Shown here: positions 16,571 to 41,153 of the stretch, one piece after another
Position numbering within the stretch: the stretch's first letter is position 1
Layout of the letters: every line of letters begins with the position of its first letter
IMG/VR virus record: IMGVR_UViG_3300037011_000200
Coordinates: 1-64,000 of that record
From: a virus
Length of the DNA stretch: 64,000 nucleotides
Direction: 5' to 3' (one strand)
Notes under the pieces: generated by a model
Database searches by the model: none
What the model saw: only the letters and a program-made list of their open reading frames with translations
Told to the model about the DNA's origin: nothing
Translations under genes and position numbers: made by a program

Positions 16571-17287
16571 ATGAATGTGAAATTGGCTTTCGAGGCTCCA
16601 CTAAAGAGTTTAGAGTTGTCTTCAAAGTTTGGTGACTATTTGTTTGCGATTGCTCTCTGGTTAAAGCATTCTGAGTATTCTGACTTTGTTTTAGGTCGTC
16701 CTGAAAGTATGGAATTGTATCTTGACAATGGTTGTTATGAACAGGGAGCCTCAATTGATATTAGAGAGTATGTTGGTTACATTGAAGGGTTACAACCTGA
16801 CGTCGCGGTTGTTCCAGATGTATATTTAAACTATCCTGATACAATTCGTATGGCTGGAGTTTTCTTTAAGGAACATTTACCTCAGACGACGAAGTATATG
16901 CTTGTTCCTCAAGGTAAGACTATGAGCGAGTGGGTGTTGTGTTATCATAAATTGTTACGAATGTTTCGTCATAGATTTAGTATTGTAGGAATTCCTCGAA
17001 ATATGTTTCCTCACAGGTTACAGTTAGTTCGTCATGTATACAACATTTCGAAAAAAGATATTCATATTCTGGGTTGTGTAGAGCCCAGTGAAATTGCCGG
17101 GATTTTAGCATCGAATGTACCAGTAGTATCTATAGACACTTCATGGCCAGCCCGTTATGTTTTAGGGAAATTAGGAAAAGAGGATCGCATTGATTTTGAA
17201 ACCGATGAGATTGGCTTTCAAGAATTTGATGGTGCTGTGAAGGAATTCTTGAGAAGAATCACACCTGAAAGAGTAAGGGTACGTTGA
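16571..17287 (+). CDS. dpdA: DpdA-like tRNA-guanine transglycosylase-fold protein
   Basis: A 238-residue protein from ATG 16571 (GAGG eight bases upstream; an in-frame ATG at 16532 is less likely). Segments match a shortened TGT fold: ELYLDNGCYEQG, PDVAVVPDVYLNYPDT, KYMLVPQG, FSIVGIPRN and IHILGCVEP, in TGT order. In bacteria and phages DpdA inserts preQ0 into DNA in place of guanine. The nearby QueC (19136), and QueD and FolE2 further on, supply preQ0, which supports this role strongly. Catalytic aspartates probably lie in DNGCYEQG and PDVYLN; I cannot confirm them by eye. Confidence 0.72.
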   Translation: MNVKLAFEAPLKSLELSSKFGDYLFAIALWLKHSEYSDFVLGRPESMELYLDNGCYEQGASIDIREYVGYIEGLQPDVAVVPDVYLNYPDTIRMAGVFFKEHLPQTTKYMLVPQGKTMSEWVLCYHKLLRMFRHRFSIVGIPRNMFPHRLQLVRHVYNISKKDIHILGCVEPSEIAGILASNVPVVSIDTSWPARYVLGKLGKEDRIDFETDEIGFQEFDGAVKEFLRRITPERVRVR

Positions 17288-18555
17288 TGATCTGTGGACA
17301 AGAATTGTTAAAGGTTTTCGAGGTTACGAAGACTTTAGGAACCAACCAAAAGATTGCTCTGTTTTCACAACTTAAGAGTAATCCTATAGTATGTAACATT
17401 TTGGTTTATGGTACTGATATTTATAGGCAGTATCATATACGTGATCTACCTCAAGTCAATTCTCCCTTTGATCATTGTCAATGGGAAACTTTATTTAAAG
17501 CATTAGATACTCTCACACAGAGTAAAGGAGCTTCCAACAAAGACAGAGAAATTTTGTCTGTGATAGCAAGTCCTTGTGAATTCTGTAGAAAGATCGTTCT
17601 TGATGTTTTACGGCATGAATTGCGTATAGGAATGGGAATTAAGAATCTTCGAGAAGCTGGATACAATATTGAATCAAGTGAGCACGTGCAACTCTGTAAA
17701 GAAGATATACTTAAGTTTCAATCCAAAGATTGTTTTCTTGCATCTGATAAACTGAATGGTTTTCGGGTTAAGTTTCATCAAGGAAATAATGGTATTGAGT
17801 TTCTTTCGCGTAAAGGGAAGCCTTACCTAATGTTTAATCAGTTGTTTAGAAAGTATATGATTCCCTCGGGTGTAATTTTTGATGGTGAAATCATTCATAA
17901 ATTAGGCAGGAAGGAAGACTTTGATTTCTTAGCTTCCGTTGCAAAAAGTGAGAAGTCAACTTATGACGATCCTCGTCAGTGTGATGTGAAGGTTGCTGTT
18001 TTTGATTGTCCTTCTCTGGGAGAGGAAAGTTTATTTTATCGTTTGAAGTTTCTTAAGGAGGAGATAAAATTACCTCAGGATGTAATGTATGTTTTACCTC
18101 ATATAGAAGTCAAGCCAACTTCAGAAAGTAACTTTGTTGAAGAAGTACTACGACTCCTTGAGGAGGCAATACCTAAGAGATATGAAGGTATTATAATTAA
18201 GAATCCATTTGTTGAGTATGAGTTAAAGCGATCTCATAGTTGGGTTAAGGTTAAGGAAATGAAGTATTCTGATTTCCCTCTGGCTTTTGATCTTCCTGTC
18301 GTTGGGAAGATAGAGGGAAAGAGGGGTAGTAAGAATGAAGGGAGGTTGGGTTCTCTAGTAGTTGATTTTCAAGGGGTACAAGTTCGAGTGGGTTATGGAT
18401 ATAGTGATCAACAGAGAATTGAGTTTTGGTCTAAGCCTCCCAAGATTATTGAAGTAAGGGCTCAACAGATTACAAAGGACGGTTCACTTCTCTTTCCCGG
18501 TTTTATGAGACCTCGTGATGACGAGAAGGATACAGGAGACTTTCAAAATGTCTGA
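17287..18555 (+). CDS. ATP-dependent DNA ligase
   Basis: Seals nicks in DNA. The adenylation lysine lies in SDKLNGFR (motif I, Lys155), followed by GVIFDGEII (motif III), RYEGIIIKNPF (motif IV) and HSWVKVKEM (motif V); an OB-fold with GKRGSKNEGRLGSLVVDF follows. The 422-residue length fits T4/T7-class and archaeal-type ligases. An N-terminal helical domain of about 140 residues includes ELRIGMGIKNLREAG, as in DNA-binding domains of larger ligases. The ATG at 17287 overlaps the DpdA-like stop. Confidence 0.9.
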   Translation: MICGQELLKVFEVTKTLGTNQKIALFSQLKSNPIVCNILVYGTDIYRQYHIRDLPQVNSPFDHCQWETLFKALDTLTQSKGASNKDREILSVIASPCEFCRKIVLDVLRHELRIGMGIKNLREAGYNIESSEHVQLCKEDILKFQSKDCFLASDKLNGFRVKFHQGNNGIEFLSRKGKPYLMFNQLFRKYMIPSGVIFDGEIIHKLGRKEDFDFLASVAKSEKSTYDDPRQCDVKVAVFDCPSLGEESLFYRLKFLKEEIKLPQDVMYVLPHIEVKPTSESNFVEEVLRLLEEAIPKRYEGIIIKNPFVEYELKRSHSWVKVKEMKYSDFPLAFDLPVVGKIEGKRGSKNEGRLGSLVVDFQGVQVRVGYGYSDQQRIEFWSKPPKIIEVRAQQITKDGSLLFPGFMRPRDDEKDTGDFQNV

Positions 18556-18886
18556 AGATCGAAGAGTTGTAATTTTCAAGTCGGTTTCAGGAGAGTTAGG
18601 AATTGGTTATCTTATTTTAGAGGGTGAGATACCACAGCGTATTGAGAAGTGTTTAGGATTGAAGTTTCCTAAACTTCCTGCTCCCCCTCTATTTGGAAGG
18701 GATCAGCAGATTGAGGTTGCTATGTATCCATTGAACCCTTTAGGTCAAGAACCTCCGACGTTTAAGATGGAGCATGTAATCTTTTATGATCAAGTTATTC
18801 CTGAGCCTGTGTATTGTAAATTTATTGAACTTGTTTCGAAAATCAAAGTTCCTGTATTGAATGTGGTAACTAAAAGAACGAACTAA
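18548..18886 (+). CDS. protein of unknown function
   Basis: ATG 18548 with GGAG upstream is preferred to an earlier in-frame ATG. The 112-residue product is beta-rich early (VVIFKSVSGELGIGYLILEG) and proline-rich in the middle. No family recognised. Confidence 0.55.
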   Translation: MSEDRRVVIFKSVSGELGIGYLILEGEIPQRIEKCLGLKFPKLPAPPLFGRDQQIEVAMYPLNPLGQEPPTFKMEHVIFYDQVIPEPVYCKFIELVSKIKVPVLNVVTKRTN

Positions 18887-18887
18887 A

Positions 18888-19130
18888 ATGAATGAAATCG
18901 AAATCAAAGGGAAATTAACACCAGCACACATCGAGTGGATAAAAGAGAAATATTATAAACAGTATGTCGGCTGTCAAAACACGGGGTTTCCAATTATAAC
19001 TTATTCAGGGGTACTCAGTGAAGAGGTTCTTAAGAAGATTAGGTTAGAATTGGTGATTGGTTTTAAACCAGAGTCGATCGAATATTATTTGGGGCGTCCT
19101 CAGGAAATTCCAAACTTATTCAGGAGGTAA
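18888..19130 (+). CDS. small protein of unknown function
   Basis: An 80-residue basic protein directly upstream of QueC. The C-terminal YYLGRPQEIPNLFRR is arginine-rich. Not recognised. Confidence 0.55.
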   Translation: MNEIEIKGKLTPAHIEWIKEKYYKQYVGCQNTGFPIITYSGVLSEEVLKKIRLELVIGFKPESIEYYLGRPQEIPNLFRR

Positions 19131-19135
19131 CAGTT

Positions 19136-19873
19136 ATGGTTCCATTTACACACACAAACGTTGACATGATTGATCCTGATAACCGCAAGGTAGTGCTCTT
19201 AGCTTCAGGAGGAATAGACTCTTCCTCATTGTGTTTCTTTCTGAAGAAGCACAGTTTTAAACTGAAACTTATCACATTTGATTATGAGTCCAAACATAAT
19301 GAGGCGGAGTATAACGCTCTTATTAGGATATGTAATTTTGGTCATATTGATATTCCTCCTCGTATTTCTCTTTCTTTTATCAACCGACTATTTGTCTCTA
19401 CTCTTTTGAAGAGTGGAAGAGATACGCCTCGAGGTCATTATGAAGATGTTTCAATGAAACAAACGGTTGTGCCTGGGCGTAATAGCATTATGTTGTCTAT
19501 TGCAGCAGGCTATGCTCAAAGTTTGAAGTATTCTTATGTCGCTTATGCGAATCATGCAGGCGATCATTATATTTATCCTGATACCCGTCCCGACTTCGTG
19601 GATGCAATGAATACAGCTATCTCTTTGAGTTCTGAAGGATCTGTGAGTCTTTTAGCGCCGTTCACGTATTTGACCAAAGCAGATATTGTTCAGATTGGTG
19701 CGGAATCAGGAACGCCTCTCGAGTTGACTTGGTCCTGTTATGAAGGGCGCTGGCCTTTTAGTTGTGGGCATTGCGGAAGCTGTGTTGAAAGACATTGGGC
19801 CTTTGGGATGGCTGGTATTCCTGACCCAACACAGTATAAGGACAATCCCGAACAATATCTGGAAGGCAAGTAA
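19136..19873 (+). CDS. queC: 7-cyano-7-deazaguanine (preQ0) synthase QueC
   Basis: Converts 7-carboxy-7-deazaguanine to preQ0 with ATP and ammonia. The PP-loop LLASGGIDSSS is at residues 21-31, the second conserved segment VPGRN at 112-116, and the zinc site has four cysteines at 201, 210, 213 and 216 (CYEG, then CGHCGSC). The 245-residue length is normal. It stands between the DpdA-like and ThyA-like genes. A hairpin follows the stop. Confidence 0.93.
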   Translation: MVPFTHTNVDMIDPDNRKVVLLASGGIDSSSLCFFLKKHSFKLKLITFDYESKHNEAEYNALIRICNFGHIDIPPRISLSFINRLFVSTLLKSGRDTPRGHYEDVSMKQTVVPGRNSIMLSIAAGYAQSLKYSYVAYANHAGDHYIYPDTRPDFVDAMNTAISLSSEGSVSLLAPFTYLTKADIVQIGAESGTPLELTWSCYEGRWPFSCGHCGSCVERHWAFGMAGIPDPTQYKDNPEQYLEGK

Positions 19874-19880
19874 GTCAACT

Positions 19881-19905
19881 ACCGCTTGTCTAAAGAACAA
19901 GCGGT
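19881..19905 (+). terminator. 9 bp hairpin after queC
   Basis: ACCGCTTGT at 19881-19889 pairs exactly with ACAAGCGGT at 19897-19905 around a 7-base loop. Only three T follow, so it may be a weak terminator or an RNA-processing site rather than a full stop. Confidence 0.5.
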
Positions 19906-19924
19906 TTCCGAAACTGGAGATTAA

Positions 19925-20719
19925 ATGAAATTTCAACCTGTTTTCATTAATGCTACTACTATAGATGATGGGTGGCATCAGATATTGATCAATCTTAATC
20001 GATTTGGTCGGGCTTATACCATTACTGATGGATCGCATGCTGGTGAAGATCGCTTGGTGTTTGACCATGTATCTGGTTTCATTCATTATCCACATAACCG
20101 GCCTTTAGCTGTACAAATGCCTGAAGGACTAGGTTTAGATCCTCCCACGACTGAGGAAGTTATTGAGGAGTATTTTACGGATTATCTTATGAATCCAACT
20201 CTTGGCTCTAATGAAGAGTATAAGTATGCTTCGTGGGTTATCGGAGGTAATGATATCTGTCCAACACCTCAATTAAATTGGGTAATTAGACATTTCCGAG
20301 AAGTAGGTTATGGTAATGAACATTGTACTATACGAATTGGAAATCATGACAGCAACTTAGCTTATGACAGATTCTTCTTCCGCTGTCCAAAATGTAAGTC
20401 GTATTACCCTCGAGGTTCTATTTGTGTTCTTTGTCGTATACCTACAGAACCCGATGAGACTAAAAGAGGAACTTCTCCTTGCTTAGTTGCCTTGGATTTC
20501 CGAATGATTGAAGGGTTTCTTTCGACTCATGTAATATATAGATCGTGGGACGCTTTCGGAGGCTGGCCAACAAACATTGCGGGTTTTACTTTACTTAATG
20601 AATTTGTTGCAGGTCTGTTGGGAGTTCAACCTGGGCCATTGAGTTTTAGTTGTAAATCATTACACATTTATAGTCATCATTTGAAAATTTTATTAAGGAG
20701 GCTCCATAAAGAATCCTAA
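19925..20719 (+). CDS. thymidylate synthase superfamily protein with inserted zinc ribbon
   Basis: Probably methylates (or hydroxymethylates) dUMP. The catalytic region reads SPC (Cys186), LVALDFRMIEGFLSTHVIYR, SWDAFGGWPTNIAGF with Asn217 in the position that selects dUMP, then SKSLHIYSHH-like closing residues. The RSWD-GG-PTN form resembles archaeal-type thymidylate synthases. Unusual is CPKC and CVLC (Cys154, 157, 167, 170) just before the catalytic cysteine, a four-cysteine ribbon not found in E. coli ThyA. Length 264. dUMP hydroxymethylase is the main alternative. Confidence 0.7.
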   Translation: MKFQPVFINATTIDDGWHQILINLNRFGRAYTITDGSHAGEDRLVFDHVSGFIHYPHNRPLAVQMPEGLGLDPPTTEEVIEEYFTDYLMNPTLGSNEEYKYASWVIGGNDICPTPQLNWVIRHFREVGYGNEHCTIRIGNHDSNLAYDRFFFRCPKCKSYYPRGSICVLCRIPTEPDETKRGTSPCLVALDFRMIEGFLSTHVIYRSWDAFGGWPTNIAGFTLLNEFVAGLLGVQPGPLSFSCKSLHIYSHHLKILLRRLHKES

Positions 20720-20723
20720 ATTA

Positions 20724-20756
20724 CCCCTTGAAAAAACTTAAGAAGTTTTATATAAT
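20724..20756 (+). promoter_or_regulatory. sigma70-type promoter with upstream CCCC element (copy 2)
   Basis: CCCC at 20724-20727, TTGAAA at 20728-20733, 17 bases, then TATAAT at 20751-20756. This is a near-consensus promoter and starts the unit beginning at 20809. Confidence 0.85.
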
Positions 20757-20808
20757 AGAATAAAAAGATATTTTTGTTATTCGTTTGTGTTTCTGATTTG
20801 GGTGCATT

Positions 20809-21855: not shown

Positions 21856-21866
21856 GGAGGTATGTT

Positions 21867-23051: not shown

Positions 23052-24295
23052 TTCACGAAACGTTACGTAGATCTATCCTAAAGATTTTGACTGCTGACTC
23101 TTTACGATTCTGGGGCCTTATTCTGTACAATTTAGAATTTAAAGTGGCGGAAGATGATCCTTTAACTCCTACAATGACTATTTATTATGACCGCGGGTGG
23201 TACTGCCGATATAATCCAGATTTCGTGAATGGAAAAAGTGAAACCGAAATGGTTTATATAGTCATTCATGAATTGGTTCATATGCTTAATGGTCATTGCT
23301 TTAGATGTAGTGAAGAATATGTTTGGTATATTTGGGCTATCGCGATAGATCATGTAGTTAATGTTGCATTAGATCATGATATGGATTGTGGGTATTTGAA
23401 GAGTATCTCAAAACCCCAAGACAGGACGATTTTTGAGGAGATTAAAGATAAAAATTGGACAGCGGAGCAAGTTTATAAATGGTTGGTGGAGAATGCAAAG
23501 GTAATTTTTCTTCCTCCTACTATGGTTGTGGTTGAAGTAGGTGATAAGCATTATCAATTTCCGATAGATATGATTGTATGTAGTGCAACCTTGGAATCAT
23601 TGAAGGCTTTGCGTGATTTAGTTTCTCAGGCTCGGGCTCATATCAATTCAGATAGAAGTAGAGGTTTACTTAGGGGATTCCTTAGAGAATTGTTATCTGA
23701 TCTGATAGATGTGGTGATTCCTCCTGAAGTTATTTTGGAGGATGCAATTAAGAATATGTTGTCAATTTCGGATAACCGAAGTTGGCGCAGTGTAAACAAA
23801 AGATTGTTTGCACATGGCATTCTAGCTCCTGCTGATGATACTGAACTTTTGATGGCAGACGTCGTTTGTTTAGTCGATCATTCTGGGTCAATATCTAAAG
23901 AGGAAGCAAAAGCATTTTCAGGGGCAATAAGAAATTGCGCGCATCTGTTCAAACGTTTACACATCGTCAAACATGATGCTGCAGTTGACAAAGACGGGGG
24001 AGTTACCATCCTAGATAGGGATGAGGTTTATCGATCCGGAACTTTGTTTGAGATGATTGGTCGAGGAGGTACAAGTCATAAAGAACCTTTTGATTATTGT
24101 CAGCAGTTATGCAATCAGGGAGAAGAGATTAGTCTGGTTCTAGTATTTACAGACTGGGCAAGTGATATTCCTGCTATTTGGGATAAGTATACTTGGCACA
24201 CAGAATTTCCTGTTCTCAATATAATTCCTAAAGGTAAAAGTTGGCTTGTCCCTGATAGATTTGGAAAGAAATATGAATTGTTTAAGGGGAAATAA
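23048..24295 (+). CDS. VWA-domain protein with zincin (HExxH) motif
   Basis: A 415-residue protein of the DUF2201 type. IHELVHMLNGH (about residues 73-83) has the HExxH zinc-protease motif. The C-terminal von Willebrand A domain has the MIDAS loop DHSGSIS (about 277) and a later GGTSH that supplies the MIDAS threonine. It overlaps the MoxR-like gene by ATGA. MoxR-VWA pairs act in metal insertion or complex remodelling in bacteria; the phage target is unknown. Confidence 0.78.
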   Translation: MIHETLRRSILKILTADSLRFWGLILYNLEFKVAEDDPLTPTMTIYYDRGWYCRYNPDFVNGKSETEMVYIVIHELVHMLNGHCFRCSEEYVWYIWAIAIDHVVNVALDHDMDCGYLKSISKPQDRTIFEEIKDKNWTAEQVYKWLVENAKVIFLPPTMVVVEVGDKHYQFPIDMIVCSATLESLKALRDLVSQARAHINSDRSRGLLRGFLRELLSDLIDVVIPPEVILEDAIKNMLSISDNRSWRSVNKRLFAHGILAPADDTELLMADVVCLVDHSGSISKEEAKAFSGAIRNCAHLFKRLHIVKHDAAVDKDGGVTILDRDEVYRSGTLFEMIGRGGTSHKEPFDYCQQLCNQGEEISLVLVFTDWASDIPAIWDKYTWHTEFPVLNIIPKGKSWLVPDRFGKKYELFKGK

Positions 24296-26934
24296 TGAGT
24301 GATCTTGTTCGAATATATGAGCCAATTATCAGTAGACTAGGAAAGTATTTATCTGCAAAACATTACTCTAGTGTGGATGAAATCGCGCATGCTTTGCGAT
24401 GGATGTATAATGATCATCTCCCCACAAAACAGCCTGTGATGGCTTTGTTGGGAGAAGCTCCCTCAGATGATGAATTCCAATTAGGATTTCCCTTTGTAGG
24501 TCCTGCAGGAGTAGTTCTTGAGGCTGGCTTAGAGTTTTCTAATTTCCCTCGTGATAACTGTTTTATCACAAACGTTTTTCCTTTTGAAAAGCCAGATGAG
24601 TACAGATGGAAAGTAGGGGATTCTGATGTTGTTTCGTCATATATAAGAGATAAACTAAAAGACTTTCCTGTAATTACCTGTTTAGGTAAACCCGCGGTTC
24701 GAATATATTCAGATTCTCAAGAAAGTATTATTGACGCTAGTGGTAGCTGCTTTGAAGTTAATGGGCAGAAAATTATACCCTCAATTCATCCAGCATACGC
24801 GTTGAAGGCTTTTATTTCTGATACAGGGGGTGACGAAAGCGTTTTTTGGTATTTAGTTCTCGCACTGCGAAACGCTAAGGGTATATTAAATGGTGAAGAT
24901 GTTTTCGAATCTACAACAAATCATAAGGCAGGTTTAATCCTTGATAAGAATGATATGATTTCATGGTTTGGGTCTGTTCCTGATAAAGCTTTTGTTTCTC
25001 TAGACTATGAAGCAACACATACTAATCCTTATTTATCCTCGTTGCCTTTATGTGGTGGTTTGAGTTATGATGGTGTGAATAGCGTTTCGATGGCATTCAA
25101 TCCATGGTTTCCTGATTCAAACATTTCGTTTTCTGACTTCTTAAAGGTAGTTGCGGAGTGTAATCATTTACAGTTTATAATGCACAATCTCTTGTATGAT
25201 TATTCTCTTATGTACCGCTTTGGATATCGAGGGAATCCTCCTGCTGCAGACACGATGTATTTAGCTCACCTTGGATTCGAGTTCATGCCTAAAAATCTCA
25301 AATTCCTTTCGTCTTTCTTTTGTAAGATTAAACCTTATTCATTTTCATTCAAGAATTTGGAGCCTTTCATACGTAAAGGGCCTGAACTTTATGAGGATTA
25401 CAAGTATTGGTTAATTCGTCTTTTGAAATATAATGGTGTTGATGCTATAGCAACACGTCTTTTACTTGATGCGATTCCACGTTTCTTAGGTTTAGATTGG
25501 CCTCGTGTTCAGAAGTTGTATAATGAATATATGCATCGATTGTTATTGAAGTTAAGGAAAGTTCAAGAGAATGGAATGATTTTGAATCTCAGTGTGAGAG
25601 AGGAAATTCATGATCAATTAAAGAGTGAGATGTCTCAGTCTGAGCATGGTTTCAAATCATATATGCCTGGTGTTGACAATCTAAGATCTTCTGATCAGGT
25701 AGCTGATGCGTTCAAAGGGATTCTAGAAGATCAGTATCCGAGTTTAATTAGAAAGACTGAGAAGGGAAATCTTTCATTAACGGCGGGAGTGCTTAAAGCT
25801 CTTGCTGAGCAAGGAATTCAGCCTGCAGATCAGTTATTACATTATAGGAAGACATGTAAGCTTTTATCAACTTATATTGATAGTTATCCTGAGTATCTTG
25901 ATTCAGAAGGTTTGATTCACACTCAATTTGCATTAACTAAAACGTCTCGCTTGCGTTCTTCAGATCCTGCCCTTCAGACTCTTCCACGACAATCCGCTGT
26001 TTTGCAATTGTTTACTGCAGATGTTGGGATACCTCCTTATGAACATGTTCTTGTAAAGGGTGATTATTCTGGAGCTGAAGCTCGAGAGTTAGCTTATTTC
26101 TGTGGTATTCAAGAGTTATTAGACCCTACTGTTGATATTCATGTTCTTACGGCTACAATATTTTTTGAAATTTCTAAAGAGCAAGTGACGCCGGAGAAAA
26201 GGCAAACAACTAAAAACTTGACATTCGGTGTTATTTATGGTGCGTCTGCTCCTCGGGTAGCTGTGCTTGTATTTGGAAGTGCAAGTCGTGAGAATATATC
26301 TAAAGCTCGTGATTTGATAGAAGCTTATTTTAAGAGGTTTTATCAGATTCCACAATTTATGCGTAATAGGGAGAATGATATCGCACGACTTGGATATGTT
26401 GAGACACCAATGGGTCTCCGACGTCATTTCCCTGTAGAGTGTATGATATTCCAAATTACTTTAGATGAAAAGCGAATGGTTGGTGCATTAGGTAGACGAT
26501 TTGGTAATAGAATGTACTCAAAGGCAAAACGTGAAGGATATAATTGTTTCCCTCAGACTGGAGTTGCGTATACGACAAATGTTTCCTTGTGTAACCTAGA
26601 TGACGCCTTTGAGGCGAAGGAGTGGAATGATAGACCTAAACCTACTGTCAACTTACAAATACATGACGCGCTGATATCAAGAATGCATCAGTCAGTTTTT
26701 ATTGATGCTTTTGAGATAAAGAAGAATGAAATGTTAAGACCAATTATAGGGGACTTGGTCATCCCCGTAGATTTTTCGATAGGGTGGGATTTGCGTAATC
26801 AGGTAAAGATTATTTCAGCTGAAGAAAGTGTTCAACCTATTGATTGGGATAAGATTTTAGGCCGTTTAAGAGATTCCAAGAGAACAGATCTTTATGACTT
26901 TGCATTACATGCAAAGTCTTTCAAGGAGGTTTAG
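24295..26934 (+). CDS. DNA polymerase I-family replicative polymerase fused to a uracil-DNA glycosylase-like domain
   Basis: An 879-residue three-part enzyme. Residues 45-190 match family 4 uracil-DNA glycosylase: GEAPSDDEFQLGFPFVGPAG (53-72) and IPSIHPAYAL (161-170). Residues about 230-400 are a 3'-5' exonuclease with LDYEAT (motif I), MHNLLYDYS (II) and YNGVDAIATRL (III), so proofreading looks intact. The polymerase follows: motif A GDYSGAEARELA (about 590), motif B RQTTKNLTFGVIYGAS (about 640), motif C IHDALISRM (about 789). A similar N-terminal domain is known in SPO1 DNA polymerase. TAATG overlap with the previous gene. Confidence 0.9.
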   Translation: MSDLVRIYEPIISRLGKYLSAKHYSSVDEIAHALRWMYNDHLPTKQPVMALLGEAPSDDEFQLGFPFVGPAGVVLEAGLEFSNFPRDNCFITNVFPFEKPDEYRWKVGDSDVVSSYIRDKLKDFPVITCLGKPAVRIYSDSQESIIDASGSCFEVNGQKIIPSIHPAYALKAFISDTGGDESVFWYLVLALRNAKGILNGEDVFESTTNHKAGLILDKNDMISWFGSVPDKAFVSLDYEATHTNPYLSSLPLCGGLSYDGVNSVSMAFNPWFPDSNISFSDFLKVVAECNHLQFIMHNLLYDYSLMYRFGYRGNPPAADTMYLAHLGFEFMPKNLKFLSSFFCKIKPYSFSFKNLEPFIRKGPELYEDYKYWLIRLLKYNGVDAIATRLLLDAIPRFLGLDWPRVQKLYNEYMHRLLLKLRKVQENGMILNLSVREEIHDQLKSEMSQSEHGFKSYMPGVDNLRSSDQVADAFKGILEDQYPSLIRKTEKGNLSLTAGVLKALAEQGIQPADQLLHYRKTCKLLSTYIDSYPEYLDSEGLIHTQFALTKTSRLRSSDPALQTLPRQSAVLQLFTADVGIPPYEHVLVKGDYSGAEARELAYFCGIQELLDPTVDIHVLTATIFFEISKEQVTPEKRQTTKNLTFGVIYGASAPRVAVLVFGSASRENISKARDLIEAYFKRFYQIPQFMRNRENDIARLGYVETPMGLRRHFPVECMIFQITLDEKRMVGALGRRFGNRMYSKAKREGYNCFPQTGVAYTTNVSLCNLDDAFEAKEWNDRPKPTVNLQIHDALISRMHQSVFIDAFEIKKNEMLRPIIGDLVIPVDFSIGWDLRNQVKIISAEESVQPIDWDKILGRLRDSKRTDLYDFALHAKSFKEV

Positions 26935-27287
26935 TGGAAAAGAAAAGAGTTCTTGTAAGATATGGAGAGTGTTTAAGGTGTGGTCAGTGCTGTCGTTTAG
27001 TTGAACTGGTTACTGCTGATGTAATAAATAAGGAGAAAGTTCAAGGTAATCTGAATTTACAACACTTTCTTAAACAAGAAGTTGCGCAATCAGTTCATTG
27101 TGTTCATTTGTGTTTTGATCCTTCGACAAAGTTAGTATCTTGTGGGTTGTTTGATAAACCCAATCGTCCACAATTTTGTATCGATCATCCAAGTAGTCCA
27201 GCATCTCTGACGAAGAGTTGTATAGGATATAAGTTTGAGTATGAGTGGTTAACTGATGAGGAGATTGCAAAACTGAAGCCCAATTAA
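26934..27287 (+). CDS. YkgJ-type CxxCxxCC metal-cluster protein
   Basis: GTG start with AAGGAGG upstream, sharing a base with the polymerase stop. The 117-residue protein has ECLRCGQCCRL, later LVSCGLFDKPNRPQFC and IDHPSSP, the usual UPF0153/YkgJ cysteine pattern. Second of three such genes. Confidence 0.65.
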   Translation: MEKKRVLVRYGECLRCGQCCRLVELVTADVINKEKVQGNLNLQHFLKQEVAQSVHCVHLCFDPSTKLVSCGLFDKPNRPQFCIDHPSSPASLTKSCIGYKFEYEWLTDEEIAKLKPN

Positions 27288-27291
27288 TATT

Positions 27292-28380: not shown

Positions 28381-28613
28381 GTTATTTAGAGTTTGATTTA
28401 ATGTCGTACTGTTTACGTATGAAAGGTAAATGGTGGGCTAATCATTTCTTTCGTAATAGGGAAGCAAACACCTTTTATAATCATCTGCGTGTGCAGGACT
28501 TAGGTACTGTGATTGAGATTTTAGGATGTGGTTGCCCTAATTATCAAATTCATATTGATGGTTACTTTGGGTATATGTGTTCAGAACTTTACCCGCATAG
28601 GAGTATTCAATGA
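28377..28613 (+). CDS. small protein of unknown function
   Basis: A 78-residue protein with several histidines and cysteines (ILGCGCPNYQIHIDGYFGYMC). It is coupled by overlap to both neighbours, ending within the start of QueD. Confidence 0.5.
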   Translation: MSYLEFDLMSYCLRMKGKWWANHFFRNREANTFYNHLRVQDLGTVIEILGCGCPNYQIHIDGYFGYMCSELYPHRSIQ

Positions 28614-29167
28614 TGGGAACTTGTGTAGCAAGACATTTTAGTTTCTGTGCGAGCCATAGACTTTTTCTCTGTGTAGACAAAAATCATCCTTGTAGTCACT
28701 TGCATGGGCATAATTATGAAGGTGAAGTAATTGTGTCTGCCCGTCGTGCATATGATGGGATGTTTATTGACTTTAGTACTCTGAAAGAAAGGATTTCAAA
28801 TCTTGAGCAGACTTTTGATCATTGTACTATTGTGAATGAGTCGGATCCTTTTGTAAAAGTTCTCACTGAATATAAAATGAAGAAAGTTGTTCTTCGTCAT
28901 GGAGATCCTACTGTAGAGCATATGACTACAGTTTGGGCTGAAATGCTTACGAGACAAATTTTATATTACTTTATGAATGTAAACCGGCTAGATCGAATTG
29001 CTGATCTCAAATCTGTTACTGTCAAAATGGATGAGACCCGTAACTGTTGGGGTTCTTACGAACATGTTATAGAAGATTTAGTATTAATACAACCAAATAA
29101 ATATAGCGATTCTCAGATTAAGGCAAGTATCTGTACAATCAACTCGAGATCGGAATTTTCAACGTGA
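28610..29167 (+). CDS. queD: 6-carboxy-tetrahydropterin synthase QueD
   Basis: Second step of the preQ0 pathway: 7,8-dihydroneopterin triphosphate to 6-carboxy-tetrahydropterin. The T-fold shows FSFCASHRL, the zinc-binding histidines at His16 and in HLHGHNYEG (HGH 32-34) with Cys28 as the likely catalytic cysteine nearby, then FIDFSTLK and a PTVEHMTTVW segment. Works with FolE2 (40266) and QueC (19136). Length 185. A second ATG at 28613 is an equally possible start. Confidence 0.9.
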   Translation: MMGTCVARHFSFCASHRLFLCVDKNHPCSHLHGHNYEGEVIVSARRAYDGMFIDFSTLKERISNLEQTFDHCTIVNESDPFVKVLTEYKMKKVVLRHGDPTVEHMTTVWAEMLTRQILYYFMNVNRLDRIADLKSVTVKMDETRNCWGSYEHVIEDLVLIQPNKYSDSQIKASICTINSRSEFST

Positions 29168-30326: not shown

Positions 30327-30337
30327 AAAGAGCGTTA

Positions 30338-30901
30338 ATGTTTACTCAAGTCGAAAGAGAACCTCTAATTCAAATATCAACTTTCCAGAATCAGGGGTTA
30401 TACTTTCCTTTTGTTCGGGTTGATAATACTTTACACTTTACATGTGAATGTTTAAATTCAATTCCTTGTGATGAAATGCTAAAGATGTCTTTATTCCCTT
30501 TAAATGCTTTAGTTAATCCTGTATTTCGAGATCGATTCCAGAGTGAATTTGAACTTGTTATGCTTGAAACATGGGATAGCAATCATTCTATAGTAATTCC
30601 GATCTTTGGAGAAATTCCTCAGTATATAGAGCTATTTTATTTATGGGAATTATTCTTGATGCATGTTGAGGATGTATTTTCCATCCCTTCAACACTTGAT
30701 CTGCTTAAGTTCAAGGTGAAGCTTGAGGAGTCAGAAGAGGCTGCGCCATTAATTTTACAATCGTTTCCCTCGAAGAAGAAATTTGTTTGTTGGCTTCCTT
30801 TGGTAGATTATGCTTTACGTGGGTTGAATGGAGTTCTGTCTACTTGTGAGTGTGGTAGGACGTTTGGAATAATTCAAAAGATGTTATTGCATTACAGATG
30901 A
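30338..30901 (+). CDS. protein of unknown function
   Basis: ATG at 30338 follows the nuclease stop; a TTG at 30311 in the same frame is an alternative. The 187-residue acidic product has no motif I recognise and ends with CECGRTFGIIQKM. Its stop overlaps the gyrase start. Confidence 0.55.
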   Translation: MFTQVEREPLIQISTFQNQGLYFPFVRVDNTLHFTCECLNSIPCDEMLKMSLFPLNALVNPVFRDRFQSEFELVMLETWDSNHSIVIPIFGEIPQYIELFYLWELFLMHVEDVFSIPSTLDLLKFKVKLEESEEAAPLILQSFPSKKKFVCWLPLVDYALRGLNGVLSTCECGRTFGIIQKMLLHYR

Positions 30902-33900
30902 AATACGACGATAAATCAATACAGGTTTTCAAGGGCGTTGAAGCTGTTCGCAAACGTCCTATGATGTACATTACTAGTCTTGACGCTAGTGGTATTCGTC
31001 ATATGTTTCGCGAGATTTTGACAAATGCAGTAGATGAACATTTAGCAGGATATGGTAATAAATTAATAGTCAAGAAGGTTGGTTCTCAGATAATAGTACG
31101 AGATTTTGGTAGAGGCGTCCCATTCGGAATTCATCCCGAAGAGCAGATTAATACCCTCACATTAGTCGCAACTCAATTACATGCAGGCGGAAAGTTCGAT
31201 GAGAACCTCTATAAAATTTCTGCGGGATTACACGGTGTGGGGTTGTCGGTTGTGAATGCTTTATCTTCTTCCCTTATAATTAAATCGTTCCGTGATGGGA
31301 AGAGTGCACATCAATTCTTTAAGAAAGGTATTCCTGATTCTGATGTTGTGCTTGGAAGTACTTCAGAGGAAAATGGAACCCTTGTTGTATATACTCCTGA
31401 TAATGAAATCTTTAATACGATAGATATATCTGTTGATTGGCTTGTTGAAGACTTATTTTTCATCTCCTGTTTGAACTCGTTGCATATTGTAGCAGATCTC
31501 GACGGGCAAGATTTAGAGTTAAAAGATAGATCACCTTGTTCGTTAATTGAGTCAAAAGATTTGCTTCATGAAGTTATTGAGATTCCTAATGCTACGGCTG
31601 ATAATAAGGTTTATGTGCTTTTTGCGTTTTCATTATCGTATAATCCTAAAGTGTTTTGTTTCGTCAATAATGTTCCAGTGCAGAGGGGTAATTTTTTATC
31701 GTCATTTTATGATTGCTTTGCGAAGCAGTTGAATGAATCTGGGATGGGTTTTGAATCAGGTGATTTGCAGGAGTCTATTAGTTTGGTATTATCTATTCGA
31801 GCTCCTGTAAGTGTAATTCATTTCAAAGGGCAATCTAAAGAGGTTGCTGATTTAAAGTATGATAAGATCCGCCCATTATATGAATACCTTTTTGATAGAG
31901 TGTGGGAAGCTCGAGGGTTCAAGGCACTCCTTACAAAATATTATAAACCCTTTCTGACAGCTGTTCAACAGAGAAGAGCGAAATCGAAAGATTTAAAGAA
32001 TGCTTTGAAAGAGCTTGGTGATCAAAAGACTACTACTATTATTCTTCCTGGTAAGCTTGCTGACTGTCAAGATCAAGAGGGATATGGAGAACTGTATATA
32101 GTAGAAGGAGAGAGCGTTAGTTATGATACTATGATTCCTTTTATTGATAAGAAGGGAGTTGAAAGATTTTTACGTATTTGTGATATTAATCCTGAAGATA
32201 TAGAAAGCGTTCGAAGTTTTAATCTTCATTCTGGTAAATATGAGATCAAACGAGTTATTGGTGTTATTCGTCATTTATATAATAAGAAGTATATTTTTAG
32301 AGTTAAGGTAAAAGGGGGTTTTTGGTTTGATATTACAGAAGATAATCAGAGTATTTATGTATATAGAGATTCTTCTTTACATGAGGTTGGGCTTTCAGAT
32401 ATCAAGATAGGAGATTTGCTTGTTTCTCCAATACAAGAGGAGTTTAATATAATATCTAGTCCAATCAATGTAATTTCAGTTTTAGTTAGAGTTGTTGGGG
32501 AATCTCGAACTCAGAAGATTAGCAACAAGTTTATTCAGTTAGATTATCAAGATTTTGATTTTGGTGTAGAAGGGCTCATTTGTAGTTTAAAAGACGTATT
32601 TTATTGTTATGGAATGGATAGATCTACAATTTCAAGATGGACTAATATCTCTTATAATGCTTTGGAAGGGTTTGATCGTAAAAGGTATTCAATTAGTTTA
32701 TTCCATTTTGGGAAGGTCAAAAAATTTATTCAGGACTTTAATGAGAAGGATTTTTTTATCAAGTTACCTTTGACAGAAGAAAATGTTAAATATTATTCAG
32801 GCAAAAGTAGTTTTCAATTTGTTATTCAAAGAGGTTCAGGGGGCTTAGGGGATCATTTTCTTAGTCCTTTACCTCTTCAATATAAAATGTCTGTAGACTT
32901 AGCTTTTATTATAGGGCAGTATATTGGAGATGGCTATCATCGTATGCCTTGCACTCCTAAAGCACAAGTCGCTTTTTGTATTGGAGAAGATAAACATCTG
33001 ATTAGTGATCAGTTAAGATTGTGTTCAGAACGTCTTTTTAAGTCTCACGGTACGATCACGGAATCAAAACCTGCTAATAAATGTTTTCAACTAGGTGTTC
33101 TTGAACTGAGATTGATTTTATATGCATTAGGATTGACTCATGAGATTAAATCATCAGATAAATTTATTCCTCAGTGCTTCTTTTCGGAGAGTAAGGAAGT
33201 TGTCGAAAGTCTTTTAAAAGGATTATACTTAAGTGGTGGTTATTTAACTACTGATACAGATTATTTTAAGTTAGGTTTCGAGACTTCATCTAGAAGATTG
33301 GCTTTTGAATTATGTAGGTTGTTATTTTTATATTTTGGTATTATTCCAGTATTTCAAAGTAAACCCTCAAAAAGATATATTATCCAAGGTATTAGTGGTA
33401 TAACTAAAGAGGTTTTTTGTGTTACCATTAATAAATATAACGATCAAATACGGTTGAAGTTTATATGCAAATTATTTGAGAGTTTCAATTCTGATAAAAA
33501 TATATCTGATCGGCCGCAATATTTTTGTCAAGGAGATTTTAGGTATATTCCAGTTGTTAAGATTGAGAGAGTTCCTTACAATAATCCATATGTTTACGAT
33601 TTAAGTATTAAGGATAATGAGAATTTTCATGTTGGAGCAATCCCTTTATTAGTTCATAATAGTGCTTCAGGTACTGCAAAGCAGGCTCGTGACCGTCGAT
33701 TCCAGGCAATATTACCAATCCGAGGAAAAACTCTAAACACTTTAAAAGCAACACTTTCTAAAACAGTTGAGAGTGATGTGATTAAAGATATCTTCGCTGC
33801 GGTTGGCGTTGATATCTCGGGAAAGCAGATTACGATTAGACCTCGCTATTCGAAGATCATCATTGCCAGTGATGCCGACAGTGTTAGTGCTGAAACAAAA

Positions 33901-35811
33901 ATTCCTTTTATTAATAAAGATGGTTTTATTCGATTTGATCGTATTGATTCTGTGGTATTGGATAAGATTCATTCAGTTCTATCATTGAACGTAAATTCTA
34001 GAGAGAGTGAAAATAAAAAGGTTCTCAGGATCATTAGTCACAAATATAATAAAAAGAAGATGTATAGAATCACGACGAAGGGCTATTCTGAAGATGTAAC
34101 TAAAGACCATATGGTTTATACCTTTAATTGTTTAACTGATGAGATTTGTCGGAAAGGCCCTCTTGAAATTAATACCAAACGTGATTTCTTAATTATTAGT
34201 AACTCACTACCTGTTGTCAATAGAGAAATCACTTTAGATTTAAGAGAATCCCTTATTGAGGTACAGAAGAGCGAGAATAGCCTCTTCATAAGAGTCCTTG
34301 CTAAAGATTTCGATTGGAAAGTTGATGGCACTGTTAAATTAACAAAAGGAAACATTCAATTTACTAGAGAGCTTTCTAGATATAAGGTTGAGCGTCTTTT
34401 AGGATTTTCGAAGAATATGCTGCAAACATATGATGAGGGCAAAGGAAGAATTCCTTTAGATGTTTTTCAGAGAATTCGAGAGATTGTTCCTGTCGATCTC
34501 AGTACTGTTTATGTATATGTAAAGTATTCAAAAGAGAATTTTCATTATTTAGATATTCTAGGTAGTTGTATTATTGATTGCAAAAGGAATATTATTGATT
34601 GGAATGTTACATTAGATAGTGAAATAGCTTATCTAGTTGGTCTATATATTGGTGATGGATCATGGGGTACTGGTCCTGCGTATGCAATTGAGTTCGCGAC
34701 TGGATTAAACTTGTATGAAGACTTTATTAGGAATTGTTCTAAAAAGTTGGGATATCATTTTAAAGAATATTTTAGAATCGAGAATTGTGCAAAGGCAGTT
34801 ATCTGTTCTATTCAGTTTCAGGCTATTCTCTACGAGCTAGGATTACGGAAAAGTGTTAATCATTCGGTTAAATTTATTCCAGAGATTTTCTTTTCGGCAA
34901 CAGAGTCTACTCGAAAAGCTTTATTGTTGGGGCTATATCATAGTGATGGCAGTTTTTATTATGCCTTAGGTTATTCTCCTTGCCTTGATTTTCGTACTAC
35001 ATCAGAGAGTTTAAGAGATGGATTAACATTCTTATTACGTCAGTTTGGGGTATTTCCATCATTGCGTACTCGTCCTCCAAACAAGAAATTGAAAGAGCAG
35101 TGGGGCCGTTCTACTATTATTGACAGGAAACCTATTTTTGTTGTTACATGTAATCAGCAGCGTGACATTGTTAGTTTAGACTTTATTTGTAGGATGTTTA
35201 ACTTAGAGAATCTATCTAAATATAAAACACCTGTTGTTGATTTTATGGCACGTACTAGAGATTTTATTCCACTAACTGAAACGGTGTCTGCGGTTAGAAT
35301 TCGGAGGATCGAAGAAGTAAGTTATGCTTATGATAGAGTTTACGACTTGGAAGTTGAAGAGCATCATAATTTCGGAATTGGCATGACAGGAATGATACTC
35401 CGAAATAGTGACGGAAAACATATAACTTGCTTACTTTTAACATTCTTTTTGCAATGGATGAGACCTTTGATTGAGCAAGGGTATATTTATATTGCTAGAT
35501 CTCCTCTCTATCGAATTGTAGAAAAGACAAAGATTCAGTTTGCATATTCTGATATTGAGTTATCTAAAATACAGAAATCTCCAGGCGCGATTATTACTCG
35601 CTTTAAAGGGTTAGGTGAATTGAATCCAAATGAATTGGCTAAGGCAATATTTGATCCTTTAACTAGGCATTTGAGTTGTGTTTCGTTAAATGATCTTACG
35701 CAGGCAGCTACAGTTACTTATTGTTTAATGGGGCCTGATCGTGAGATGCGTTGGGATTTCATAAATGAATTTATGTCACAGATTGATTATGAATGGAAAG
35801 GGGAAGTATAA
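30898..35811 (+). CDS. gyrB: DNA gyrase/topoisomerase IV subunit B with two inteins
   Basis: A 1637-residue precursor. The GHKL ATPase is intact: EILTNAVDEH, RDFGRGVPF and SAGLHGVGLSVVNALS. The Toprim domain is split twice. The first intein (residues 406-921) sits after YIVEGE, before SASGTAKQARDRRFQAILP. The second (995-1503) sits after IIIASDAD, before SDGKHITCLLLTFF. Removing both gives about 612 residues, the normal length of a short GyrB/ParE, ending in an intact Toprim and C-terminal tail. No subunit A is in the window. Both inserts lie in metal- and DNA-contact motifs. Confidence 0.92.
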   Translation: MKYDDKSIQVFKGVEAVRKRPMMYITSLDASGIRHMFREILTNAVDEHLAGYGNKLIVKKVGSQIIVRDFGRGVPFGIHPEEQINTLTLVATQLHAGGKFDENLYKISAGLHGVGLSVVNALSSSLIIKSFRDGKSAHQFFKKGIPDSDVVLGSTSEENGTLVVYTPDNEIFNTIDISVDWLVEDLFFISCLNSLHIVADLDGQDLELKDRSPCSLIESKDLLHEVIEIPNATADNKVYVLFAFSLSYNPKVFCFVNNVPVQRGNFLSSFYDCFAKQLNESGMGFESGDLQESISLVLSIRAPVSVIHFKGQSKEVADLKYDKIRPLYEYLFDRVWEARGFKALLTKYYKPFLTAVQQRRAKSKDLKNALKELGDQKTTTIILPGKLADCQDQEGYGELYIVEGESVSYDTMIPFIDKKGVERFLRICDINPEDIESVRSFNLHSGKYEIKRVIGVIRHLYNKKYIFRVKVKGGFWFDITEDNQSIYVYRDSSLHEVGLSDIKIGDLLVSPIQEEFNIISSPINVISVLVRVVGESRTQKISNKFIQLDYQDFDFGVEGLICSLKDVFYCYGMDRSTISRWTNISYNALEGFDRKRYSISLFHFGKVKKFIQDFNEKDFFIKLPLTEENVKYYSGKSSFQFVIQRGSGGLGDHFLSPLPLQYKMSVDLAFIIGQYIGDGYHRMPCTPKAQVAFCIGEDKHLISDQLRLCSERLFKSHGTITESKPANKCFQLGVLELRLILYALGLTHEIKSSDKFIPQCFFSESKEVVESLLKGLYLSGGYLTTDTDYFKLGFETSSRRLAFELCRLLFLYFGIIPVFQSKPSKRYIIQGISGITKEVFCVTINKYNDQIRLKFICKLFESFNSDKNISDRPQYFCQGDFRYIPVVKIERVPYNNPYVYDLSIKDNENFHVGAIPLLVHNSASGTAKQARDRRFQAILPIRGKTLNTLKATLSKTVESDVIKDIFAAVGVDISGKQITIRPRYSKIIIASDADSVSAETKIPFINKDGFIRFDRIDSVVLDKIHSVLSLNVNSRESENKKVLRIISHKYNKKKMYRITTKGYSEDVTKDHMVYTFNCLTDEICRKGPLEINTKRDFLIISNSLPVVNREITLDLRESLIEVQKSENSLFIRVLAKDFDWKVDGTVKLTKGNIQFTRELSRYKVERLLGFSKNMLQTYDEGKGRIPLDVFQRIREIVPVDLSTVYVYVKYSKENFHYLDILGSCIIDCKRNIIDWNVTLDSEIAYLVGLYIGDGSWGTGPAYAIEFATGLNLYEDFIRNCSKKLGYHFKEYFRIENCAKAVICSIQFQAILYELGLRKSVNHSVKFIPEIFFSATESTRKALLLGLYHSDGSFYYALGYSPCLDFRTTSESLRDGLTFLLRQFGVFPSLRTRPPNKKLKEQWGRSTIIDRKPIFVVTCNQQRDIVSLDFICRMFNLENLSKYKTPVVDFMARTRDFIPLTETVSAVRIRRIEEVSYAYDRVYDLEVEEHHNFGIGMTGMILRNSDGKHITCLLLTFFLQWMRPLIEQGYIYIARSPLYRIVEKTKIQFAYSDIELSKIQKSPGAIITRFKGLGELNPNELAKAIFDPLTRHLSCVSLNDLTQAATVTYCLMGPDREMRWDFINEFMSQIDYEWKGEV
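32113..33660 (+). other. intein 1 in GyrB (516 aa, LAGLIDADG homing endonuclease)
   Basis: The first residue is Ser (SVSYDTMIPFIDKKG), the last is Asn in LLVHN, and the next extein residue is Ser, the splicing requirements. Two LAGLIDADG-like blocks lie inside: AFIIGQYIGDGY (about intein residue 263) and LLKGLYLSGGYL (about 366), the second having Gly in place of the acidic residue. That may weaken the endonuclease. Confidence 0.88.
33880..35406 (+). other. intein 2 in GyrB (509 aa, LAGLIDADG homing endonuclease)
   Basis: Starts SVSAETKIPFINKDG and ends MILRN before Ser. LAGLIDADG-like blocks are AYLVGLYIGDGS (about intein residue 249) and LLLGLYHSDGSF (about 348), both with the acidic residue. 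The N-terminus is clearly related to intein 1 and the insertion is in the next Toprim acidic motif. Confidence 0.9.
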
Positions 35812-36165: not shown

Positions 36166-36166
36166 G

Positions 36167-36244: not shown

Positions 36245-36272
36245 TCGTCGTTAGAATTAAGGAAGGAATATT

Positions 36273-36759: not shown

Positions 36760-36821
36760 GTAGTGTAGTGGTGAGCACCAGTCCTGCACCCCTAAGCTGG
36801 CCTTTTTGGGAAAGGGATATT

Positions 36822-37805
36822 ATGTCAATTTTAATCACGTCTGATTTGCATTTCGATGAAAAGATTGTTAATGATGGGTATCATGAAAAGCTTTCAGGGT
36901 TTCTGAGAGAACAGCAGACCGCTCACAGGGCAAATATGCTTTTCATTTTAGGTGATTTCTTTAGTGAGCATTTAGACCCTCATCGGCGTATTGCTTTCAA
37001 AGTACTTGATGCGATCGCAGATTTTTTCCATTCATTGGACTTCGAAAAGATTGTCATTTTGAAAGGTAATCATGACGAGTCGTTTATCGGTCATCATAAT
37101 CTGAAGATTCTCTCGTTGGATTTCCGTGTACAAATAATCGATACACCTACAATAGTTAAGATTAACAACATAAAATTCCTCTTCATTCCTTTCTGCAAGG
37201 ATAAAGATCTTTTTTATTCGATTATTGATCAGGCTGAAGGTGGTGAGAATGTGATCGCTTTGATTCATCAACCGATAGTTGGATTTCGAGTAAGTGCAAA
37301 ACATGCTTGCACGAATGGGATTGATTCTAACAAACTGCATAAGTTTGCTTTAGTTGTTGCAGGTGATTTTCACGATTATCAGAGTCAAGGTAATGTGGTA
37401 TTTATTGGATCACCATATCAGGTACGGCGTGACGAAGATCTCAAAAAGTTCATGATGTCAATATCTGATGATCGTGTGTCGCTTATAGAGTTACCTGTAG
37501 CTTTGTCTCAAAGGTTCATTTTTGTGGAGAATGCTACACAGATTGATCAGTTGGGGGACTTGCGAGGGAAAATTGTAGTTGTATCTGAAGATGTTGATAT
37601 TGATAAAATTAACCAGCTTAGAGATAAAGGAGTTAAGATTGTTTCTTCAAAGGCATTAATGAAGGAAAGTGCTCCTGTTGTTGAAGTGGATTTGTCATCC
37701 TTTTCGGTTAATCTTTTGAAATCAGCTGTTGAAAGAATGACTGATCCTTATATGAAGGCTGTAGGCCAAGATTTATTAGAAAGGATTGGTTATGGCTCAT
37801 CGTAA
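36822..37805 (+). CDS. sbcD: SbcD/Mre11-like exonuclease subunit
   Basis: A 327-residue metallophosphoesterase. The metal-binding motifs are in order: SDLHF (residues 7-11), LGDFF, KGNHDES, LIHQP and GDFHDYQ. ATG 36822 with GGAAAGGG upstream is used rather than an upstream in-frame start at 36753. Partner of the SbcC-like ATPase at 38354; the pair corresponds to T4 gp47/gp46 and processes DNA ends for recombination. Confidence 0.88.
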   Translation: MSILITSDLHFDEKIVNDGYHEKLSGFLREQQTAHRANMLFILGDFFSEHLDPHRRIAFKVLDAIADFFHSLDFEKIVILKGNHDESFIGHHNLKILSLDFRVQIIDTPTIVKINNIKFLFIPFCKDKDLFYSIIDQAEGGENVIALIHQPIVGFRVSAKHACTNGIDSNKLHKFALVVAGDFHDYQSQGNVVFIGSPYQVRRDEDLKKFMMSISDDRVSLIELPVALSQRFIFVENATQIDQLGDLRGKIVVVSEDVDIDKINQLRDKGVKIVSSKALMKESAPVVEVDLSSFSVNLLKSAVERMTDPYMKAVGQDLLERIGYGSS

Positions 37806-38013
37806 ATATCCGAGGTTGGGTAGCCAATATAAAACTCAGGTTACAGGGGAAGAAGGCTTCTTAAAGTGTGATCAGTGCCAGACGTATTTGGTGAAGGGTG
37901 AAACAGTTGTGAAGCAGGATATTCAGCTTGACTGGTTTCGTGAGGATGATGACGTGAAGAATTTATGTAAAAAGTGTGTACAGATTCTAGATTTGTCGAA
38001 GTTGTCGAAGTGA
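37792..38013 (+). CDS. small zinc-ribbon protein
   Basis: ATG 37792 with AAAGGA upstream overlaps the SbcD-like stop. The 73-residue protein has CDQCQ and CKKC about 35 residues apart. It sits between the two nuclease subunits; a role with them is possible but unproven. Confidence 0.55.
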   Translation: MAHRKYPRLGSQYKTQVTGEEGFLKCDQCQTYLVKGETVVKQDIQLDWFREDDDVKNLCKKCVQILDLSKLSK

Positions 38014-38352
38014 TTGAAGGAGTCTGTTATTCGGTGTATGAATTGTGGCTATTGTTGTATCTATTATGATGTTATAATTTTAAAGCCTGGAATTAACCTT
38101 TCCAAGTTACGGGCTGTAAAAACTGAAGATGTTATTCAACACAAAAGAGGGGGTGAATGTTGCCCTCATTTAGAATGGCTTGCTGATGGCAAAGCGAATT
38201 GTAAGATTCATCACTTCAAGATTTATAAGAAGACACCTTGTTTTTCTCATAGTCAGATAGAGCGGAATTTTGAATGTAATTGTCGAATGGGTGAATATAT
38301 TTGGAAGCAAGGACGTGCTAAGGAAATCAGGAAGGAATTTGAGGGAAGGTAA
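38014..38352 (+). CDS. YkgJ-type CxxCxxCC metal-cluster protein
   Basis: TTG start directly after the previous stop. The 112-residue protein has CMNCGYCCIYYD, later ECCPHLEW and NCKIHHFKIYKKTPCFSH, with further cysteines in ECNC. The cysteine pattern matches UPF0153/YkgJ proteins. Third of three such genes in the window. Confidence 0.6.
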   Translation: MKESVIRCMNCGYCCIYYDVIILKPGINLSKLRAVKTEDVIQHKRGGECCPHLEWLADGKANCKIHHFKIYKKTPCFSHSQIERNFECNCRMGEYIWKQGRAKEIRKEFEGR

Positions 38353-38353
38353 A

Positions 38354-40204: not shown

Positions 40205-40209
40205 AAGTG

Positions 40210-40242
40210 CCCCGTGAAAAATAAATTGAGTTTTTGTATAAT
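40210..40242 (+). promoter_or_regulatory. sigma70-type promoter with upstream CCCC element (copy 3)
   Basis: CCCC at 40210-40213, GTGAAA at 40214-40219, 17 bases, then TATAAT at 40237-40242. Same layout as the copies before 3213 and 20809. Starts the folE2 unit. Confidence 0.8.
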
Positions 40243-40265
40243 CTCATAATGAAGAGGAGTGCGCT

Positions 40266-41153
40266 GTGTTAACGGTTCATGATTTACAGCCAGATGTTCA
40301 GTTAAAGATTCAGAAAGTTGGTATTCGTAAGATTTCGGTTCCTGTTCAGTTTTCGTTAGATAGCTTTTTATATGGAGGTTTTCAATCTGATGTTTCTGTT
40401 CAGTCTTTGTTAGCTGATGCTTCGTGTTACGCTGAATTGAATCAAGATCAGAAAGGAGCACATCTTAGTCGGTTTGCAGAAATTTTACGCAAATGGTCTC
40501 CTATAACGCTTTATGAGGGTCTACCGCTTCGCTTGATTCAGGATCTTGCGAATCGTCATGAGTCGCATTGTGTATATCTTAAATTGAGATTTGTACCTCT
40601 CTTCGAAGGAATATTTACAGTTACATATCAGAAGAAAGCTGAGCCCTTTCTTGTAGACGATACTTTTATTCGTCATCCCGTCAATGTCAGTTTTCCGTTT
40701 CAAATGATTGTTCCTATGATTTTTGAATATTCTGCATATCGAGATGGAAAGGTTAAGTTTTTTGTAACCTTCGAATTAATAGGTTTCAATGTTTGTCCTT
40801 GTGCGCTGAAGGAGTGTGATGGCCTTGCTTCACACTCCCAACGCGCACTGTTACGTGTGAGTTTAGATCTCAGTTCGGTGAAGGCAAGTGTAATTACGTG
40901 GGATGAGTTGTTTCATGGTTTGATAAATACAACGTTCGCTGCACCTGCTGGCACGGTATTAAAGCGTGATCAAGAGTTAGCAGTCATCCAAACGGGCTTT
41001 CAGAACCCTCGATTCGTAGAAGATAGTGTTCGATTTGCAGCTTCTTATCTAACTGAACTCTTACCAGGTGTTCCTTATTCATTGGTATGCGATTCTGATG
41101 AAAGTATTCATTATCATAATGCAGTTGCAGTGATTCTAAATGGTATGCCATGA
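40266..41153 (+). CDS. folE2: GTP cyclohydrolase FolE2 (type IB)
   Basis: First step of preQ0 synthesis, GTP to 7,8-dihydroneopterin triphosphate. The GTG start has GAGGAG upstream. Conserved FolE2 segments are DQKGAHLSRF, NVCPCALKECD, ASHSQRALLRVS and NPRFVEDSVR. The 295-residue length is normal for the type IB enzyme. It is the first gene after promoter copy 3. Confidence 0.9.
   Translation: MLTVHDLQPDVQLKIQKVGIRKISVPVQFSLDSFLYGGFQSDVSVQSLLADASCYAELNQDQKGAHLSRFAEILRKWSPITLYEGLPLRLIQDLANRHESHCVYLKLRFVPLFEGIFTVTYQKKAEPFLVDDTFIRHPVNVSFPFQMIVPMIFEYSAYRDGKVKFFVTFELIGFNVCPCALKECDGLASHSQRALLRVSLDLSSVKASVITWDELFHGLINTTFAAPAGTVLKRDQELAVIQTGFQNPRFVEDSVRFAASYLTELLPGVPYSLVCDSDESIHYHNAVAVILNGMP

Follow-up and report, generated by a model that had tools for sequence, protein, structure and literature searches.

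In the DNA of Campylobacter phage CP220, dG is reported to be 100% replaced by dADG (PMC8306585). Partial pathways have also been described in phages: Bipper is without QueC only, and 76 phages carry DpdA alone (PMC6884629). For QueC, the conserved motifs SGGxDS, VPxRN, C(x)8CxxCxxC and YPDC have been described (PMC13329287).

The DNA analyzed here, a stretch of 64,000 nucleotides (below, the window), is taken from a virus record of 98,541 bp, of which it forms bases 1-64000; nearly all genes in this record are located on the plus strand. Neither end of the record is complete: a reading frame is already open at base 1, and on the right the sequence stops within a tandem array. The unit lengths of the several arrays near this end (L003 12300-12650 and 16769-17541) include 31, 44 and 82 bp. 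A nucleotide search with bases 16000-40000 revealed no close relatives in 50,697 phage records. In scans of viral contigs, the single-sequence queries P0001 and P0004 gave nothing, and profile scans gave matches. The nearest relative that was found is the virus contig JAGGSE010000232.1 (96.9 kb, open) in MAG bacterium AUK014; inferring the host from this bin was rejected, since binning is no proof of host. Both viruses carry a fusion of a UDG-superfamily domain with DNA polymerase A, and they share 50% identity in DpdA, 46% in QueC and 26% in FolE2.

Genes for predicted 7-deazaguanine synthesis and insertion

The pathway genes and the polymerase fusion gene are located in the window as follows:

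16571..17287, plus strand: dpdA-like gene, DNA guanine transglycosylase (TIM barrel) with predicted 7-deazaguanine insertion into DNA; phage DpdA matches, invariant D residues, fold
19136..19873, plus strand: queC, 7-cyano-7-deazaguanine (or amido) synthase; PF06508 E 1.8e-51, TIGR00364 above cut-off
24295..26934, plus strand: fusion of UDG superfamily and DNA polymerase A that serves as a lineage marker; it is kept in related DpdA viruses, where it adjoins dpdA or folE2
28610..29167, plus strand: queD, 6-carboxy-tetrahydropterin synthase; PF01242 E 7.8e-22
40266..41153, plus strand: folE2, type IB GTP cyclohydrolase with a GTG start; PF02649 E 9.1e-40, own-genome search E 1.5e-39

The positions given for the four pathway genes in a preliminary description of this DNA are all correct. 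The dpdA-like frame opens at 16532, and since a ribosome-binding site (GAGG) is present only before the ATG at 16571, the latter is the better start, yielding a protein of 238 amino acids. Its matches, with E values down to 9e-10 against phage DpdA (tblastn), share 24-28% identity with it; the one in Flavobacterium phage immuto is annotated as DpdA, and those in Campylobacter, Cellulophaga and Chryseobacterium phages are unannotated. The preliminary description held that absence of the TGT catalytic aspartates would speak against the assignment; in an alignment of 23 DpdA homologues, D65, D96 and D202 are invariant, and so are H178, L180, G181 and S200. Sequence search found no kin of the protein in the PDB, whereas fold search with its AlphaFold model (pLDDT 86.6) did: the top Foldseek match is 7ui4, the DNA preQ0 insertase DpdA (E 2.3e-7), with tRNA-guanine transglycosylase in third place, and the 50 matches listed by VIA-align are all TGT or DpdA, with Z of about 15-16. 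In the DpdA tree, this virus and its nearest relative group together with 99/96 support; the deeper branching order is unsure because of long branches.

The common fold of DpdA and tRNA-TGT, with nearly equal Z, and the fact that QueC and QueD are common to the queuosine pathway could be taken to mean that these genes raise queuosine in host tRNA and do not modify phage DNA. We regard this as very unlikely, since the transglycosylase groups with phage DpdA by sequence, a motif check found no TGT zinc motif CxCxxC in it, and QueF, which is required for preQ1, is absent from the 98,541-bp record, as the preliminary description had noted for the part that it covered.

QueC exceeds the curated cut-offs in both Pfam and NCBIfam and keeps SGGIDS (PP-loop), VPGRN and the C(x)8CxxCxxC zinc site, while YPDC is replaced by YPDT. 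The choice between YPDC and YPDT was considered as a sign of whether dPreQ0 or dADG is made, and this was rejected, since contigs that carry QueF, and hence need the nitrile, also have W-D-T. Some other viral QueC proteins (L100 13967-14800, L032, L026 and others) keep the PP-loop and have lost all cysteines of the zinc site; the contigs that encode them mostly carry QueF. QueD keeps CxxxHGH, DH and the C-terminal E142, and its best NCBIfam model is QueD, with a score below the model cut-off.

All four enzymes are thus genuine members of their families with catalytic motifs in place, and the fold and kinship of DpdA are established, which supports the earlier reading of a 7-deazaguanine DNA-modification pathway. 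From this we infer the enzyme activities, DNA as the target and the nature of the product, and consider it quite probable that the phage makes a 7-deazaguanine base and exchanges guanine in its own DNA for it. In the proposed pathway, FolE2 would convert GTP to dihydroneopterin triphosphate and QueD would then form 6-carboxy-tetrahydropterin. The step to 7-carboxy-7-deazaguanine would require QueE, for which the record has no gene. QueC would turn 7-carboxy-7-deazaguanine into the amide (ADG) or the nitrile (preQ0), and DpdA would exchange guanine in DNA for the ADG or preQ0 base. The expected base is one of these two because neither QueF nor an amidotransferase domain on QueC is present. By analogy with CP220, whose DpdA-like protein is related to that of this phage, dADG at a high level is a fair guess as to the product, but not more.

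FolE2 and its distribution

The score of the FolE2 protein exceeds the Pfam cut-off (PF02649). With NCBIfam models it reaches 107.7 bits for FolE2 (cut-off 215) versus 98.3 bits for MptA, each under the cut-off, and it keeps the CPC, SHSQR and ESIHxH motifs. Falling below the NCBIfam equivalog cut-off, it is, as judged from its sequence, a divergent FolE2. The gene is preceded by an SbcC-like gene, so named by reading of the sequence.

As an alternative to FolE, a zinc enzyme, FolE2 is flexible in its choice of metal. The preliminary description considered its use unusual for phages, and the counts bear this out: FolE2 queries retrieved three unannotated and doubtful matches from the 50,697 phage records, versus 392 for a FolE query, and two of the three, labelled as Staphylococcus aureus phages, may be host DNA inside the records. 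FolE itself was not found in the 98,541-bp record. Among 20 large DpdA contigs, 17 have FolE and two have FolE2, and the two were never seen together (0/20).

Outside these phage records, FolE2 is present in five other DpdA-carrying contigs of about four lineages, namely, G002, G003, G005 and G006 from IMG/VR and the 96.9-kb relative. The four IMG/VR contigs share with this phage the combination of FolE2, QueC and DpdA; of the four, only G002 and G003 showed a QueD, the specific search for this gene not extending to G005 and G006. Unlike this record, G002, G003 and L100/G006 also have QueE. The FolE2 rows on the DpdA tree require at least three changes. Since FolE2 recurs in five DpdA contigs and never alongside FolE, the FolE2 pathway is a variant rather than an accident. 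Searches built on FolE would overlook this form of the phage 7-deazaguanine pathway, which recurs in uncultivated viruses, and the use of FolE2 may inform on the metal supply of the host.

The QueE step

QueE was searched for with a profile (A9), with phage QueE queries and with PF04055, and none was found in the 98.5-kb open-ended record. A profile built from 42 viral QueE proteins recovered the QueE of the nearest relative, itself a training member, at E 6.5e-56, and gave nothing credible in the record, where its best match was a 43-aa fragment with E 0.026. The cysteine motif of the relative's QueE is CX9CX2C and this protein is missed by PF04055, which is therefore the weaker test, and we relied on the QueE profile instead. 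A scan for CX3CX2C, which returned only short chance frames, was discarded as inadequate for the same reason. The preliminary description had reported no QueE from the lack of a CxxxCxxC protein and suggested a search of the rest of the genome; its conclusion stands for the whole record by profiles, but its criterion was insufficient and would have missed the CX9CX2C enzyme of the relative. Since the record is incomplete at both ends, absence of QueE holds for the record and not for the whole virus. It is unusual, since of 20 further large DpdA contigs, 19 gave a QueE with profile A9. The preQ0 transporter family was likewise not found in the 98,541-bp record.

That the cause is mundane is most likely. 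One such cause is that QueE is encoded in genome sequence beyond the ends of the record, in which case the pathway is complete and ordinary except for FolE2. This is a serious contender, if at somewhat less than an even chance, given that the left end opens inside an ORF, that the right end stops in a tandem array and that both the nearest relative and, with one exception, the other large DpdA contigs encode QueE. Against it, much of such a genome would already be covered by 98.5 kb, judged by the 96.9-kb relative (itself open), and the other four genes are all located inside the record.

Supply of the QueE step by a putative host queuosine pathway has slightly better than even chances in our estimate. 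The gaps in the two viruses are complementary: JAGGSE010000232.1 has FolE2, QueC, DpdA and QueE on one contig and no QueD by profile search, while this phage has QueD and no QueE. Either gap can result from chance truncation, because both contigs are open, and both gaps can be accounted for if the host supplies 6-carboxy-tetrahydropterin or 7-carboxy-7-deazaguanine. In the MAG that contains the relative, two radical SAM genes score just 25-28 bits against the QueE profile. Dependence on the host for this single step would be unusual, given that nearly all other large DpdA contigs carry QueE, and a further point against the proposed pathway is that in G001, a partial relative, only DpdA and QueD were seen. 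We read the pathway as patchy, filled by host queuosine enzymes or by a gene off the record. The complementary gaps make sharing of a queuosine pathway between host and phage directly testable.

There is little chance that the step is filled in any other way. Three proteins with CxxCxxCC cysteine clusters are encoded in the window (11149-11976, 26934-27287 and 38014-38352), two of them with homologues in G001, and it is conceivable that queE is absent from the phage altogether and that one of these unrelated proteins, or another phage enzyme, forms the 7-deazaguanine ring. The gene at 26934-27287 lies a few genes upstream of queD, its product has no match in known phages, and in the related virus L012 a homologue is likewise located in the neighborhood of queD. 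Nonetheless, this reading is scarcely credible, since such proteins are common and show no sequence kinship to radical SAM enzymes, and a lack of QueE is not established in the related viruses that share one of them.

Proposed transcription units and relation to known phage systems

The genes dpdA, queC and queD share the replication region with genes for helicases, a ligase, the polymerase fusion and an intein-bearing gyrase B. The gyrase B-like protein (1637 aa, window 30898-35811) matches intein splicing regions at 898-922 (C-terminal) and 997-1075 (N-terminal), which suggests two inteins in one gene. Window positions 19925-20719 encode a thymidylate-synthase-like protein whose C-terminal third best matches the methanogen-type model TIGR03283 and which carries a CxxC...CxxC zinc-ribbon-like insert; an unusual pyrimidine chemistry is possible. 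In the structural region, an 852-aa protein (window 54340-56898) has a weak match to ATP-dependent DNA ligase and two partial homologues in the nearest relative. The tail region (record bases 65270-81202, L002/L003) contains a single ORF of 5310 aa, likely a giant tape-measure protein; that of the nearest relative holds a 2205-aa ORF.

The neighborhood of the polymerase gene is partly conserved. A queD homologue also follows the polymerase gene in L012, and folE2 adjoins the UDG-polymerase gene, or is one gene away from it, in L099, L100 and the nearest relative, and adjoins a UDG-like gene in G003. In the nearest relative, unlike this phage, folE2 is located close upstream of the polymerase gene.

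Three elements bear on transcription of the pathway genes:

19881..19905, plus strand: RNA hairpin, terminator-like with a short T run, directly 3' of queC; fold z-score -3.0
20724..20756, plus strand: CCCCTTGAAAAA-15-TATAAT, a promoter-like motif located in the gap that precedes the queD-containing block
40210..40242, plus strand: CCCCGTGAAAAA-15-TATAAT, a promoter-like motif immediately 5' of folE2

The motif common to both gaps is CCCCnTGAAAAA-15-TATAAT, and the copies at 20724 and 40210 are identical at 23 of 33 positions. Random controls reached at most 17/23; since the choice of the 23 positions was itself based on the two copies, this control is somewhat generous. When three or fewer mismatches are allowed, the pattern has six matches versus 1.25 expected, and none of 100 shuffles reached six. 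Another copy, weaker than these two, is present at 3126 and might stand at the head of the block that contains dpdA and queC. A looser form of the motif was found in neither of the relatives c1 and L012. Since the promoter-like motif precedes both the queD-containing block and folE2, and a hairpin follows queC, the three transcription units proposed in the preliminary description are plausible, and the pathway genes, which are spread through the replication region, are probably carried on three transcripts.

Two kinds of described phages come closest to this one. Escherichia phage CAjan (Queuovirinae, dPreQ0) likewise has a GTP cyclohydrolase, QueD, QueC and DpdA; unlike here, its GTP cyclohydrolase gene is located in one cluster with those for QueE and a putative preQ0 transporter. 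The CP220-type phages, whose DpdA family we take to be the DpdA3 of the literature, resemble this phage in a DpdA-like protein of about 240-260 aa with identical invariant residues, in a QueC of the YxSxH subtype and in genes that are scattered and do not form one operon. DpdA identity to CP220 is only about 25%, and in contrast to that group, this phage uses FolE2 and has no QueE in its record. We conclude that its 7-deazaguanine pathway is real and, among those of phages, slightly unusual, and that the use of FolE2 makes it a new variant.
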